Below are positions 4,939-18,888 of a stretch of DNA of 22,226 bases, piece after piece. The stretch is from positions 1 to 22,226 of the IMG/VR virus record IMGVR_UViG_3300042568_000396, one strand, 5' to 3'. The stretch comes from a virus. Every line of letters starts with the position of its first letter. Positions within the stretch are counted from its first letter, which is position 1. A model generated the notes under the pieces. The model was not told the origin of the DNA. It saw nothing but the letters and a program-made list of their open reading frames with translations, and did not search any database. Both the position numbers and the translations under genes were made by a program.

Positions 4939-5253
4939 TTAGGTTGCGTTTGCGTATACAGTGGCAGTGGCAGACCAGCCGCGATAATCGTCGTTCTTTG
5001 ACTCAAGTGTAGAGTTCGTCCAGAACCCTTTGCCGCTTATTCCTGTGACGGTTCCAAATGCGTCACCAGCATCAAAAGGCGACTCATCACCTTTTCCTTT
5101 TGCGCTAATTGAATAGCTTCTGTCGTAGCTTTTTGCTTCAGAAAATGCTCCAACAGAATCAATTAGCTGTTTGAACTCAGCCTTCATTTCAATGTCAAGG
5201 GACTCAATGATTGTGCCCGTTGCAGACAAAAGTGTTATTCCAAATACGGCCAT
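4939..5253 (-). CDS. Small tail-tube-like protein, second of two paralogues, 104 aa
   Basis: Starts MAVFGITLLSATG at an ATG 4 nt after the stop of the preceding paralogue. A longer reading from 5529 is open, but its first ~92 residues are the out-of-frame shadow of that gene. The middle part, DRSYSISAKGKGDESPF, and the end, ESKNDDYRGWSATATVY, line up with KTKGEASLLAV and QTNDDFSTAEATYT of the neighbour, so the two look like an ancient tandem duplication. Size, beta-rich composition and position before the chaperone fit a tail tube or tube-like protein. No strong Shine-Dalgarno is visible, so coupling with the upstream gene is likely. Function is inferred. Confidence 0.7.
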   Translation of the reverse strand: MAVFGITLLSATGTIIESLDIEMKAEFKQLIDSVGAFSEAKSYDRSYSISAKGKGDESPFDAGDAFGTVTGISGKGFWTNSTLESKNDDYRGWSATATVYANAT

Positions 5254-12936: not shown

Positions 12937-13165
12937 GGAACTTAAGATTGTGACGCTGCGTCGGATGATTGCTGCAAATGATTGGTCAGCAGCAATTAAG
13001 TTTGCTGCAAAGTTTCCTCGGCTTGGTCAGGCTCGAGACGCAATTTTGTCGGCAAAGGATGCCTTGCAAAACCCTGCGTTTTATCGGCAGTTGCGCCGTG
13101 ATCCTGATGCGGTAATTGCTGCGGGAGTTGCTGCTCTGGTCCAGCAATACCAAGAGCGCGCTTAA
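12935..13165 (+). CDS. Small antisense-strand protein of unknown function, 76 aa
   Basis: The only convincing plus-strand gene in the window. It starts at ATG 12935 (MELKIVTLRRMIAANDWSAA) and ends at TAA 13165. It is basic, helical and well structured in composition: WSAAIKFAAKFPRLGQARD followed by AFYRQLRRDPDAVIAAGVA. I have the impression of similar small phage proteins (LRRLIAANDW..AAKFPRLG) but cannot check. The ATG overlaps the ATG of the small terminase gene head to head, and the last 170 nt are antisense to the 3' end of the glycosyltransferase-like gene. Upstream open codons reaching to 12857 are antisense to the terminase and are left out. Confidence 0.65.
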   Translation: MELKIVTLRRMIAANDWSAAIKFAAKFPRLGQARDAILSAKDALQNPAFYRQLRRDPDAVIAAGVAALVQQYQERA

Positions 13166-14069
13166 TTTGGTTGAGCGCGTTACGCTTGTCGTCGAGCGCG
13201 CGCGCCACTAACGGAGACTGCCAATCCAGCGCTGCCGCAATCTCTTGCGGATAGCTTAATTTTACTGCCATCGCGTCTACATCTGCGGCGCATCGGATTA
13301 TATATTGCGCGGGGATTTGGATCCCATATTTGTCCCAAGTGTTAATGCTTTCACGTTGGAACAGAATTGGCACTCCGCACCACAAGGCTTCATAATACCG
13401 ATTTGCCGGGCAGTTGTAGTGCGCGTGCGTATAAGCGTCCTCCAAATACAGGCTTGCAGCAAATTGCCTAAGTGTTTCTTGCCCTGCAATCCAACTCATG
13501 CCTCGCGCGTACCTTGGCTCAATCCCGATACTTGCAAAGATCTTCATATTTTTGGGCGACGTGCTGAGCCAGCAATTGCGCCCAATATATTGCCCAAAAT
13601 AACGGGCCCGATCCTTGCGCCAGCGCCCGTAGTAGATTGCTCCATACTTGCGAGTCTTAAGTGGATTAACGCATGGCCTTGCAAGTAGAGCGTTTAGATT
13701 TACAAACACTTGTTGCTCTGCTTGTTTGTTTTGCAGCGGATGCTCAAAATTGCGGAACACTCCGTATTTGCGGCCAGCGTAAAACAGAGGAGCAAAGGTG
13801 CTTTGCTCGTATTCCCCAACGAGCCACCACAGTTGGGCCTGAGGATTGCGCTTGAGAAAAGCCACTGACTCTGTGCGCTCGCACGAGGTGGACCCAAAGC
13901 CGCAAATAATTGCGTCAAAGTGATCTGGTGCTCCTCTAAGCCCCACAGCGTCAACATACAGCGGGGCGTTTAATTCTTTGGCAAGCACCATCATGTTCCG
14001 ATAAGCCACCGTTAGGCTTCCCTCGGGGTCACGAGTGCCTTGCCTCGCATCCAGCAACGCAACTTTCAT
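12996..14069 (-). CDS. Glycosyltransferase-like protein, 357 aa
   Basis: Starts MKVALLDARQGTRDPEGS at 14069, chosen for its 4-nt overlap with the ParB-like gene; ten more residues upstream are open. The pattern is GT-B-like: an N-terminal Rossmann-type half with FDAIICGFGS, then a C-terminal half with CPANRYYEALWCGVPILFQ near 236-254, the usual sugar-nucleotide-binding E-A-L-x-CGxP motif, and INTWDKYG. Target and sugar are unknown; phage DNA bases or a host surface component are both possible. The last ~55 residues (Gln/Pro-rich, LPQQLPHQDHGATADK) are of odd composition because the plus-strand gene occupies the same DNA; they may be unimportant. Confidence 0.65.
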   Translation of the reverse strand: MKVALLDARQGTRDPEGSLTVAYRNMMVLAKELNAPLYVDAVGLRGAPDHFDAIICGFGSTSCERTESVAFLKRNPQAQLWWLVGEYEQSTFAPLFYAGRKYGVFRNFEHPLQNKQAEQQVFVNLNALLARPCVNPLKTRKYGAIYYGRWRKDRARYFGQYIGRNCWLSTSPKNMKIFASIGIEPRYARGMSWIAGQETLRQFAASLYLEDAYTHAHYNCPANRYYEALWCGVPILFQRESINTWDKYGIQIPAQYIIRCAADVDAMAVKLSYPQEIAAALDWQSPLVARALDDKRNALNQIKRALGIAGPEQQLPQQLPHQDHGATADKTQGFARHPLPTKLRLEPDQAEETLQQT

Positions 14070-14614
14070 AGCTTTGCCAGCTTGCGCAAATCGGCCCACT
14101 TAATTTTGCGCCCTCCCAAAATTGACTCTGCTTCTGTGCGCTCATCCCAATCCTTGCACACAATTTGCAAGCAACATTCTTCCTTAATTTCATTTACTTC
14201 ATCTAGCGCAACTGGGCCTTGATCTGCGCTGGCTGGATCAAATCCGGTAAGGTCCAAGTCAAAATCAGCCTCCCTTAAATCTGCCAACTCAAGCCCGAGC
14301 ATCTCGTCATCCCAGCCTCCACCAAGTTCGGCCAGCCGGTTGTCCGCGAGGATATACGCCCTGCGCTGCGTCTCTGTCAGGTGGTCTAGCCGCAAACACG
14401 GGACCGCCTCAAGCCCTAGTTTGCGAGCTGCAAGCACGCGGCCATGCCCAGCGATAATGCCGTTCTCGGCGTCCACCAGGACGGGCGAGTTAAACCCAAA
14501 CTCGCGGATGCTGGCAGCAAGCTGTGCAACCTGCTCGTCAGAGTGTTTGCGAGCGTTGCGAGCGTAGGGGATGAGCGCCTCGATTGGTACGGACTCTAGC
14601 TTTTTAACTGCCAT
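14066..14614 (-). CDS. ParB-like nuclease/Srx-fold domain protein, 182 aa
   Basis: The ParB N-terminal fold is clear: ALIPYARNARKHSDEQVAQL near the N-terminus, FGFNSPVLVDAENGIIAGHG with the conserved GHGR motif, AARKLGLEAVPCLRLDHL, then QRRAYILADNRLAELGGGWD. In phages such domains often sit beside DNA methyltransferases or terminase genes; no methyltransferase lies next to this one, but a glycosyltransferase-like gene follows. The C-terminal ~60 residues are acidic and unassigned. The start MAVKKLESVP at 14614 is chosen from domain boundaries; a GTG at 14683 would add 23 residues of unlikely composition. A terminator precedes it, so it may open its own transcript. Confidence 0.8.
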   Translation of the reverse strand: MAVKKLESVPIEALIPYARNARKHSDEQVAQLAASIREFGFNSPVLVDAENGIIAGHGRVLAARKLGLEAVPCLRLDHLTETQRRAYILADNRLAELGGGWDDEMLGLELADLREADFDLDLTGFDPASADQGPVALDEVNEIKEECCLQIVCKDWDERTEAESILGGRKIKWADLRKLAKL

Positions 14615-16170: not shown

Positions 16171-16328
16171 AGCGTCGCCTCCAGTTCGTTGAGTCCGCAC
16201 CCCAGCTCTTCCGCCACGCTCATGCGGGCCTCGATCTCGCTCTCAGCGTGGACAGTCCAGAATCGATACGGCGTCCAGTCGTGGGATACTTTGTAGGTCA
16301 GTTTTTTTATACGTTCCGCTGTGGTCAT
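16167..16328 (-). CDS. Short protein of unknown function, 53 aa
   Basis: A gene easily missed for its length. ATG at 16328 gives MTTAERIKKLTYKVSHDWTP, then YRFWTVHAESEIEARMSVAE, and it ends ELEATL at a TGA that overlaps the next ATG by 4 nt. The pattern of a strand with WTVHAES followed by a helix with EAR..VAEELG is protein-like, and the exact coupling supports it. No Shine-Dalgarno is visible. Function is unknown. Confidence 0.7.
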   Translation of the reverse strand: MTTAERIKKLTYKVSHDWTPYRFWTVHAESEIEARMSVAEELGCGLNELEATL

Positions 16329-16350
16329 ATTGGTTTGTATGGTTAGGGCA

Positions 16351-16692
16351 TCAGACGGGGCTGTTAGTGGCCTCTGTTGGCCGTCTGGCTGCGTTAAGCT
16401 CGCGCCGGTCTCGGATAAAGCCCACAGTTGAACCGTAGGTCAGCCCTAGCGTGTCCACGTCAACCTGGTTCAGCAGTTCGCACGCCCGCTCAAAATGCGC
16501 CTCCAGATCCAGCCTGCGCTCGTGTAGCGCCGGGTGCACCACGTCGCAGGCTAAACAAGGGCGGCTTGCCAGTGCTGCGTTCTCGGCGCGCAATGCCTGG
16601 TTGAGCTCGATCTGCATTGCGAGTCGCTCCCCCAAGTCTTGGGCGGCTGCGTACACGTCAGCCTTGGTAATGTTGGCTAGGTCAAGGGTCAT
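16351..16692 (-). CDS. Helical protein of unknown function, 113 aa
   Basis: MTLDLANITKADVYAAAQDL is followed by a helix with AMQIELNQALRAENAALASR, a CLACDVVH motif at 46-53, and then another helix (ERRLDLEAHFERACELLNQV). The Cys pair could bind metal but stands alone. The C-terminus GFIRDRRELNAARRPT is basic. No family is recognised. It follows the initiator-like gene by 32 nt and precedes the short 53-aa gene by 22 nt. Confidence 0.65.
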   Translation of the reverse strand: MTLDLANITKADVYAAAQDLGERLAMQIELNQALRAENAALASRPCLACDVVHPALHERRLDLEAHFERACELLNQVDVDTLGLTYGSTVGFIRDRRELNAARRPTEATNSPV

Positions 16693-16724
16693 GGGTCTGT
16701 AGTCGGTTGGGTGTTGGCAAAACT

Positions 16725-17327
16725 TTAGAGAAATCCCAAAGCGGCTTTCATCCTGGCCAGTCGTGCCAGGTCTTCCGGCTTGGTAATTTCGGCTTCGTCG
16801 TTCTTTGAGCCGCTGCCGCCCCTCAAGGGCGGGCGAGCGGGCTCGGATTCTTCTTTCTCTACTACTCCCGCTGCCGCTTGCGGCGGCGCGGAGTAGTTAT
16901 TCTCTGTTCTCTTCTTGCACACCTGTGAGGGTTTCACGTCGTGACCCTGTGAGGGTTTCACCTGCTCACCCTGTGAGGGGTTGCCATAACCCTGTGAGGG
17001 GTGGCTAATCGAGAGCAAACAAAAAGCATTTCGGGTTGCTCTCAGTGCTCCGTTTGCCCCCGAAAAGATGCGGATTAACCCGGCTTTTGCAAGGTCAGGA
17101 AGGCACCTAGAGACGGTGTTTTTAGACGATCCGATGTGGCTGGCTAACTGCTCATATGATGCCGCAAAGCGGCGTTTCTGGTCGATGCCAGCGGCACTTT
17201 GAAAATGTGTCAGAGCGTGATAAACGGCGTAGTGATTCGGGCCAAAACGGCCTGCAATTTTTGCCGCCTCGCGTGCTTGCCAAGCCCACGGGCCTTCTTG
17301 TTTTGGGTTTTCAGATCTCGGTTTCAT
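16725..17327 (-). CDS. Winged-helix replication initiator-like protein, 200 aa
   Basis: Probably binds the origin and loads the helicase encoded just upstream. The start MKPRSENPKQEGPW at 17327 is chosen by ATGA overlap with the helicase gene; a further 58 codons upstream are its shadow. Residues ~30-100 form a winged helix: NHYAVYHALTHFQ, then ASYEQLASHIGSSKNTVSRC, then LPDLAKAGLIRI. Residues 109-136 repeat PSQG or PSQV four times, the translation of four DNA repeats, and are followed by an Ala/Glu-rich linker and a short helix (DLARLARMKAALGFL). The layout, a DNA-binding domain, in-gene iterons and a C-terminal partner segment, resembles lambda O. Confidence 0.7.
   Translation of the reverse strand: MKPRSENPKQEGPWAWQAREAAKIAGRFGPNHYAVYHALTHFQSAAGIDQKRRFAASYEQLASHIGSSKNTVSRCLPDLAKAGLIRIFSGANGALRATRNAFCLLSISHPSQGYGNPSQGEQVKPSQGHDVKPSQVCKKRTENNYSAPPQAAAGVVEKEESEPARPPLRGGSGSKNDEAEITKPEDLARLARMKAALGFL
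16922..17000 (-). repeat. Four palindromic iterons inside the initiator gene, candidate origin
   Basis: CCTGTGAGGG (plus strand) occurs at 16922, 16946, 16970 and 16991, with steps of 24, 24 and 21 bp. Three copies have an additional 5' C, giving CCCTGTGAGGG, with CCCT and AGGG arms around GTG. The first two are followed by TTTCAC, the last two by G. Steps are multiples of three, so the coding frame is kept. Directly to the left lies a more AT-rich stretch (about 16893-16915). Confidence 0.75.
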
Positions 17328-18670
17328 TTGCGTTTTTTGGGTTCCTTGTCTTCTAAAATCGGCTTTGCGCATGGCTTCCAAATCATGCCATCCCGCTCTT
17401 GGTTCGGGCTGTGCCGAATGTGTATTCGCGCCGATAGCTTGTTTGTTTCCAAGTCCATCATGCCCGCTCGGAGCCTGCGCTTGGTCATCGTCAGTGAGCA
17501 CGTCGGCGGGTCACCTTCAGGCGTCTCCACGCGCTGCAATGTGACGACCTCTCGCGCCCAGTTGGTCAGCGCGCTACTGCCAAAGCCAGCGTAGGCCAGG
17601 TCTGAGTCGGTGCGGGCTGTGCCTTCCCGAGGCTTTGGAAGGTGATGAATGAGCGCCATTATCACGCCCGTCTTGCTACTGATCCGATTGAGCGCGTTAC
17701 AGAACTGCGTCACCACCGCCTGGTCGGAAATATCGTCCCCTAGGTAGCACATTAGCGGGTCGATCCAAACGATGTCAGGAGAGTGCCGGATCACTAGGGC
17801 CTCTAGCACGCGGAGAAACTCCGGCCCCGCATGCGTGTTGTCGCGGTAGAAGACCAGCCTCTCGTTTAGTTCGGCACGAACGCGCTCGTCGCAATTGCCC
17901 TTGCCGTACTTGCAGACGACCGATTGCAAGATTTCAGACTGATCGCCCAGATCATTCTCGGCTTGCAAAATCAGACTTTTTAGCGGTCGCACCGGCAGAA
18001 TCCCAAAGGTGAGCAGTTCACCAAAAGTGGATAATTCCGCAGTGTCCCGAGGGATTGCCCAGCCAATTGCAAGCTGCATGGTCAGACTGCTCTTTCCGAT
18101 GCCAGATTGAGCATTAATAAGCACAGATCCGCCTTTGCAGAGCCAACGGTCGCCTAAGACCGTATTGGGGTCGTGCTTGGTATCGTATTCCAGCAACTCG
18201 TCAAAGCTGGTCTGACGGACCTCGCCTAGTCCCTGCTCGGCAGCCGCTACGGTCACTGCATCGCCTAGGCTTGCGACAACGTCCCCTGTAGGATCTCCAG
18301 TAGAGAGTGCCTGGGTCGCTTGTGTGAGCCTTGCCAACAGTTCCCGGCGCCGTGATGCGTCCTGCACTAGCCCGCACCAGTCGGGCAGCGGATGTAGGCT
18401 CGGCATTGTTGCCGACAGCTCAGAGATTGCCCCAAACGGAATACCTTGGGTCGCCAGCCGGTGAAAAACGGATATGGGATCCAAACTAGCCCCCTCGTCT
18501 GCTGCTCCTCGTATCCCGGCAAAGATTGAAGCCAGCTGTGGATCGTAAAAATCACCAGCTCGGAGCCCGCAACTCGTGACAATCTGCAGAGCTGTCTGTG
18601 GCGCAAAAAGCAGACAGCCCAGCACCGCCCGCTCGGCCTGGTCGGCCTGCGGGATCATTATGGCGCTCAT
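17324..18670 (-). CDS. Replicative helicase, DnaB N-terminal domain plus RepA-like ATPase, 448 aa
   Basis: Unwinds DNA at the fork. Residues 6-115 are a DnaB-type N-terminal helical domain (AERAVLGCLLFAP, then DFYDPQLASIFAGIR). The RecA-like domain follows: Walker A AQSGIGKSS at 187-195, Walker B IVWIDPLM at 300-307, and IHHLPKP at 341-347 as the sensor-like strand. The ATPase core is closer to the RepA/AAA_25 type than to classical DnaB. The basic end KEPKKRK may touch DNA. It starts 2 nt after the upstream gene's stop and overlaps the initiator-like gene by 4 nt, so the two probably work as a pair. Confidence 0.85.
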   Translation of the reverse strand: MSAIMIPQADQAERAVLGCLLFAPQTALQIVTSCGLRAGDFYDPQLASIFAGIRGAADEGASLDPISVFHRLATQGIPFGAISELSATMPSLHPLPDWCGLVQDASRRRELLARLTQATQALSTGDPTGDVVASLGDAVTVAAAEQGLGEVRQTSFDELLEYDTKHDPNTVLGDRWLCKGGSVLINAQSGIGKSSLTMQLAIGWAIPRDTAELSTFGELLTFGILPVRPLKSLILQAENDLGDQSEILQSVVCKYGKGNCDERVRAELNERLVFYRDNTHAGPEFLRVLEALVIRHSPDIVWIDPLMCYLGDDISDQAVVTQFCNALNRISSKTGVIMALIHHLPKPREGTARTDSDLAYAGFGSSALTNWAREVVTLQRVETPEGDPPTCSLTMTKRRLRAGMMDLETNKLSARIHIRHSPNQERDGMIWKPCAKPILEDKEPKKRK

Positions 18671-18672
18671 GG

Positions 18673-18888
18673 CTATAGCGCCGCCTCAAAGTCTCGCTGC
18701 ATTCGGGCAAACGGGGACAACGTCTCGGCCTCCAGAGTGCCTTGAAACATTTGAATGGCTTTGGCAATCGTCCACGATTCCATGCTGTCTGCGTCAATTC
18801 CAGCTTGCCCACAGCCCACCAGCGCCCTGTGCGCCCGCTCTAGCTCTCCTGCAATTCTCTCTGCTTCTTGGTTTTCGGTTTTGGTCAT
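18673..18888 (-). CDS. Small helical early protein, 71 aa
   Basis: The start at 18888 (MTKTENQEAERIAGELERAH) is chosen because GAGGAG lies 4 nt upstream; a longer open form to 18942 adds 18 residues. It is one long charged helix, then GIDADSMESWTIAKAIQMFQ and LSPFARMQRDFEAAL. It lies between the SSB-like gene and the helicase gene, with only 2 nt to the latter. A helicase-loader or accessory role is conceivable by position, but no family is recognised. Confidence 0.65.
   Translation of the reverse strand: MTKTENQEAERIAGELERAHRALVGCGQAGIDADSMESWTIAKAIQMFQGTLEAETLSPFARMQRDFEAAL

Follow-up and report, generated by a model that had tools for sequence, protein, structure and literature searches.

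In phage lambda, the initiator gene O carries four dyad iterons in its middle part; they are bound by O dimers and adjoin helicase recruitment functions (PMC5043065, PMC7466680), and a 40-bp AT-rich tract is found beside them (PMC5043065). In SPP1, the origin repeats of oriL are located in the initiator gene 38, and the phage encodes its own DnaB-family helicase (PMC6316719). The rep gene of the staphylococcal plasmid pSK41 (RepA_N) contains four Rep boxes and encodes a winged-helix N-terminal domain and a C-terminal domain that contacts the replisome; the origin-encoded linker can be dispensed with, and pPR9 is a natural chimera in which ~500 bp, covering the N-terminal domain plus the origin, were swapped (PMC5703833). 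In the PLE satellites, RepA retains its C-terminal domain, whereas its DNA-binding domain covaries and is swapped together with the origin, and such swaps have been connected with evasion of the nuclease Odn (PMC8263062). Thus, the mechanism proposed here was known in kind from lambda, SPP1, pSK41 and PLE. Moreover, lambdoid O proteins have type-specific origins, so matched specificity was not new in principle. The open-access literature on initiator/iteron coevolution provided the PLE and pSK41 precedents, and no phage series of such kind was found there.

The window analysed here was an entire virus record of 22,226 bases. Similar to lambda ori/O, it had four dyad iterons inside an initiator gene with a helicase function adjoining. 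In contrast to lambda, where the iterons are 18-19 bp long with the 40-bp AT-rich region adjacent and the neighbouring gene encodes the loader P, the dyads were ~15 bp long and had an N5 spacer, the adjoining gene encoded a DnaB-like helicase, covarying inverted repeats were present beyond the iterons, and the gap was short and moderately AT-rich. In-gene origin repeats and a phage DnaB-family helicase were shared with SPP1, whereas in SPP1 the loader is a separate protein (gp39) and there is also a second origin, and a scan of the examined loci for own-class dyads found no second iteron cluster. The winged helix and the four in-gene sites in the linker resembled pSK41. However, RepA_N was not among the Pfam matches of the initiator, its helix was of the CRP type, the carrier was a phage, and there were many swaps rather than the one of pPR9. 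As in PLE, the binding domain and the origin were swapped together with retention of the C-terminal domain, but the PLE origin occupies a separate noncoding region and has two module types, while here it was in-gene with at least seven types. Therefore, what is new is the natural specificity series (a many-state exchange) together with the covarying inverted repeats, and the principle of the origin itself is known. We consider it very probable that the locus is a theta origin of the lambda/pSK41 type within its own initiator gene and that it carries an unusually mobile specificity cassette. This reading was based on the fixed spacing of the repeats, the excess of dyads over the null, the match between helix and half-site, the uniqueness of the repeats, the covarying stem, the disordered linker, and the exchange among relatives.

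The initiator gene was on the minus strand directly after the helicase gene (17324..18670, minus strand), in which a domain search identified DnaB-N plus AAA_25. The most likely start of the winged-helix gene was the ATG at 17327, giving a protein of 200 aa (16728..17327, minus strand; stop codon 16725-16727) instead of the 258-aa ORF. This ATG overlapped the helicase stop at 17324 (ATGA), and the resulting start (MKPRSE...) was kept in relatives. It had originally been predicted that the repeats were inside a winged-helix gene adjoining the helicase, and this arrangement was borne out. The gene was assigned as an initiator because it matched the PHROG annotation 'replication initiation protein' (phrog_270, 1e-7; the O-like phrog_678, 7e-6, spanning residues 109-208 of the long ORF). 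Among deposited phages, the initiator had no relatives at E<=1e-3 and the helicase had two weak matches only; a host search of genome_contigs returned no relatives of either protein. Elsewhere in the window, a 367-aa ORF (12996-14099) had no PHROG match and was possibly glycosyltransferase-like by eye.

AlphaFold2 predicted, for a monomer, a confident winged helix (residues 21-90 mostly at a pLDDT of about 83-94), a disordered linker (residues 109-181) that includes the peptides encoded by the iterons, and, beyond it, a C-terminal helix. The DNA-binding domain was placed at residues 19-104 (17016..17273, minus strand), and both Pfam and PDB sequence searches identified it as a CRP-type HTH. 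Foldseek matches were winged-helix proteins, including some plasmid initiators and TubR, but all were weak (none with E below 0.001). In the profile alignment, the stretch of the recognition helix aligned with the CRP helix-turn-helix; its start (residues 68-76, SKNTVSRCL, 17100..17126, minus strand) carried the class A specificity and covaried with the iteron word. The variable positions of this helix are base-contacting in CRP. The C-terminal helix (residues 184-199, 16731..16778, minus strand) may contact the helicase or primase, and the type of this tail tracked the helicase tree.

Four exact copies of CCTGTGAGGG were located at 16922-16931, 16946-16955, 16970-16979 and 16991-17000, exactly as originally predicted, with steps of 24, 24 and 21. 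No other exact copy was present in the window; the one single-mismatch copy (at 5042) can be compared with the 1.4 matches expected by chance in 22 kb when up to 1 mismatch is allowed. The extended form CCCTGTGAGGG was found in three of the four copies, while the copy at 16922 read ACCTGTGAGGG. Thus, the predicted CCCT-GTG-AGGG dyad was present, but the site was probably slightly longer than proposed: from sequence, it would be a dyad with two 5-bp half-sites separated by a 5-bp spacer, (N)ACCC-N5-GGGT(N) in class A. In coding order on the minus strand, slots 1 (16989..17001) and 2 (16968..16980) read CCCC-TCACA-GGGT, slot 3 (16944..16956) was the perfect dyad ACCC-TCACA-GGGT, and slot 4 (16920..16932) read ACCC-TCACA-GGTG with one half degenerate, so that three of the four dyads were imperfect. 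The repeats were in frame and encoded PSQG three times and PSQV once, in agreement with the predicted PSQG reading. The iterons were separated from inverted repeat 1 by a purine-rich gap (16898..16919, minus strand; coding strand about 60% AT, only moderately AT-rich, and short) that may serve as an unwinding element, and relatives had a T tract upstream of the iterons. A GC skew plot of the 22-kb linear record was uninformative.

Relatives were collected from IMG/VR with the helicase (54 loci) and the initiator (11 loci) as queries, two more contigs came from a profile search, and 49 distinct initiator genes were analysed (44 main-family and five divergent), all from this one collection, with incomplete contigs and descent shared within classes. 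The iterons were directly followed by one or two inverted repeats, in which changes were compensatory, and a long stem was found soon after the iterons in all 44 main-family and five divergent genes (by folding; from sequence for L064 and L065). Inverted repeat 1 (ACTACTCC...GGAGTAGT, 16861..16897) was 98% paired over 20 distinct sequences, with 58 double and no one-sided changes; its covariation was 0.74 compared with 0.21 for shuffled and <=0.15 for slid alignments. In inverted repeat 2 (GAGCC...GGCTC with a TTGAG loop, 16807..16844), covariation was weaker: two pairs changed only on both sides, and the outer part was looser. The arm sequence did not track the iteron class, and in L019, L026, L056 and L058 the stem was read in another frame (QLLRAAPSGSG-type peptides). 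The covarying inverted repeats pointed to a further origin element; they may belong to the same origin as a loading, priming or cruciform signal. As a transcription terminator, inverted repeat 1 was rejected since it was not followed by a T run on the coding strand and had no G-U pairs.

The inverted repeats also bear on an improbable alternative, an autoregulatory operator, in which the protein would bind the in-gene dyads and repress its own operon at the level of transcription or translation, without any role in replication initiation. The CRP-type winged helix and the position of the sites within the gene's own transcription unit would suit such a function, and inverted repeats might exert an effect at the mRNA level. 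However, none of the 34 sequences had a G-T cell in stem 1, and the lack of G-U pairs favoured a DNA over an RNA structure; block exchange may have contributed as well. Moreover, the sites were ~330-400 nt into the coding sequence, and no promoter-like match was found in a scan of 16300-18700, where terminator-like sites occurred at about chance level. The protein matched replication initiator families and adjoined a helicase, and four phased sites in an initiator gene are the pattern of known in-gene origins.

Iteron arrays are also typical of partition centromeres. It was conceivable, though very improbable, that the winged helix binds the iterons for segregation or incompatibility, as in a parS or a TubR/ParR-like system, given that TubR was among the weak fold matches and the window contained a ParB-like gene. 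However, no TubZ or ParM partner was found among the window genes searched, the partner gene was a replicative helicase, and the ParB-like gene was 2 kb away and also matched methyltransferase-associated ParB domains.

Returning to the origin reading, we found dyads just after the winged helix in every relative (about 50 in IMG/VR). In most members of classes A-G, the slots were at +14, +35, +59 and +83 nt (spacing of 21, 24 and 24 bp); an iteron copy was lost or added in L005, L023, L034, L043 and L096, and the divergent L063 and L064 had less regular dyads. At this constant spacing the DNA word differed by class, and with it the encoded peptide was replaced wholesale (PSQG, APQA, TPHG, SPQD and others). 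The number of N5-spaced 4-bp dyads was 138, compared with a mean of 33 and a maximum of 49 under the synonymous-shuffle null; gap-3 dyads were likewise raised, and gaps 11 and 13 were high as raw counts. Within genes, spacer bases varied more than half-site bases. The dyad of L061 was encoded in three frames (SVTMT, GHHD, WSPRP), and L065 and L062 had one copy each in a second frame; dyads in different reading frames mean that the DNA was conserved and not the peptide. A PSQG peptide kept over a synonymously broken dyad had been named as counterevidence, but 33 of 34 PSQG copies in class A used the same codons (192 encodings possible), the exception having a different P codon. Synonymous constraint rose over codons ~97-180: for codons 101-180, excess codon identity reached 0.4-0.75 in most blocks (not 151-160), against 0.05-0.26 before codon 100, some blocks having few codons. 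Own-class dyads numbered 160 inside the genes and 8 outside, in about 570 kb of loci. The expectation that homologues would keep the repeat while linker codons vary was thus borne out for the dyad architecture, most strongly by the persistence of dyads under changing peptides and frames and by the agreement of the dyad sequence with the recognition helix. The suggestion that the linker only hosts the DNA signal was consistent with the model, since a linker predicted to be disordered would be free to vary with the DNA. Selection on a tandem linker peptide, with the DNA repeats as a by-product of duplication, hardly deserves belief despite the in-frame repeats and the identical codons of identical peptides, and it was largely contradicted already by the wholesale swaps at constant spacing, the dyads in other frames, the dyad symmetry above the synonymous null, and the predicted disorder.

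Two side observations were made on the iteron region. The codons between iterons were invariant over classes A-F (GTG in 42/42 at two places, GGC in 41/41), giving a common CGTGA-like word in relatives and in the window (16957-16967, 16933-16943 and 16981-16988). Iterons of L012, L034, L043, L045 and L096 looked inverted, with the spacer TGTGA, TGTGT or TGTGG for TCACA or ACACA.

The main family contained seven half-site/helix classes, and in the aligned sequences the iteron word followed the predicted recognition helix of the same protein. The helix KN..[AS]R was paired with nACCC (class A), RG..[KN][TAS] with GTNCA (B), QR..CR with ACGCC (C), RG..RI with GGTCA (D), RA..AR with GTMTC (E), ER..AR with ATGMC (F), and TK..QR with RGGAC (G). 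As read directly from the DNA, Arg at the sixth helix position corresponded to C as the innermost half-site base (21/21 genes), and T, A, I or S corresponded to A (18/18 genes). All 12 phylogenetically independent contrasts were concordant (p=5e-4), where the innermost base was assigned from the class, in agreement with direct reading in 39/39 genes. The third slot of L099 (class C) had a half-site resembling that of class F (GCC-TCACA-GTCA), which may be a scar of recombination.

On the helicase tree, class required 20 changes (minimum 6, shuffled 21.8) and was therefore nearly random. By contrast, the C-terminal tail of the initiator gene required 13 changes (minimum 12, shuffled 30.1); for the hairpin arm the count was 21 (minimum 13, shuffled 30.4). 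When the tree was built from the winged helix with the recognition helix removed, class required 8 changes; all these trees were quick searches. Since class was near-random but the tail followed the tree, the winged helix and the repeats are exchanged as one cassette. Neither this exchange nor the covarying inverted repeats had featured in the original prediction. For instance, L068 (class A) and L027 (class B) were mostly 80-98% identical outside but 55-77% from about +40 to +400, and the helicase proteins of the window and L017 were 95% identical although their classes differed. The comparison showed switching among at least seven putative specificities by cassette exchange. Because the binder and its site are within about 400 bp, recombination moves both together, and RecT-like and exonuclease genes in the same phage are a plausible means of exchange.

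The four repeats are very probably the binding sites of the phage's own initiator, for which the match of helix to half-site offers indirect support, and we propose that replication would start there. The winged-helix domain, probably as a dimer, would bind the four dyads in the DNA encoding its own flexible linker; the complex would then put the DNA beside it under strain and melt it, and would load the DnaB-like helicase of the adjoining gene, perhaps by way of the initiator's C-terminal helix. More tentatively, and with somewhat less than even confidence, we suggest that diversifying (negative frequency-dependent) selection keeps the specificity cassette polymorphic. An initiator and iterons matching those of a co-infecting phage or satellite, or an origin-targeting defence, would incur a penalty; rare specificities would win, and exchange of the winged helix and iterons would therefore far outpace that of the remainder of the gene. 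This suggestion was drawn from the exchange rate, which could also reflect a recombination hotspot.

Judging from sequence, the helix that reads the DNA and the repeats that match it appear to behave like an exchangeable lock and key. Natural series in which a DNA-binding protein switches together with its target are rare. With at least seven matched helix/half-site pairs on a common scaffold and the target within the gene, a recognition code of winged-helix initiators becomes directly testable, and the seven classes provide candidate orthogonal initiator/origin pairs. They also raise a testable question, namely why origin specificity has been reshuffled almost to randomness when the remainder of the gene tracks descent; the arms race between PLE and Odn offers a precedent (PMC8263062).

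Finally, in relatives, extra genes were often inserted precisely at the junction where the helicase gene ends and the initiator gene starts (L012, L022, L023, L025, L029, L034, L038-L044, L049-L051 and L058). The inserted genes were DNA methyltransferase-like, acetyltransferase-like by eye, or members of an unknown MNYTKIG family.
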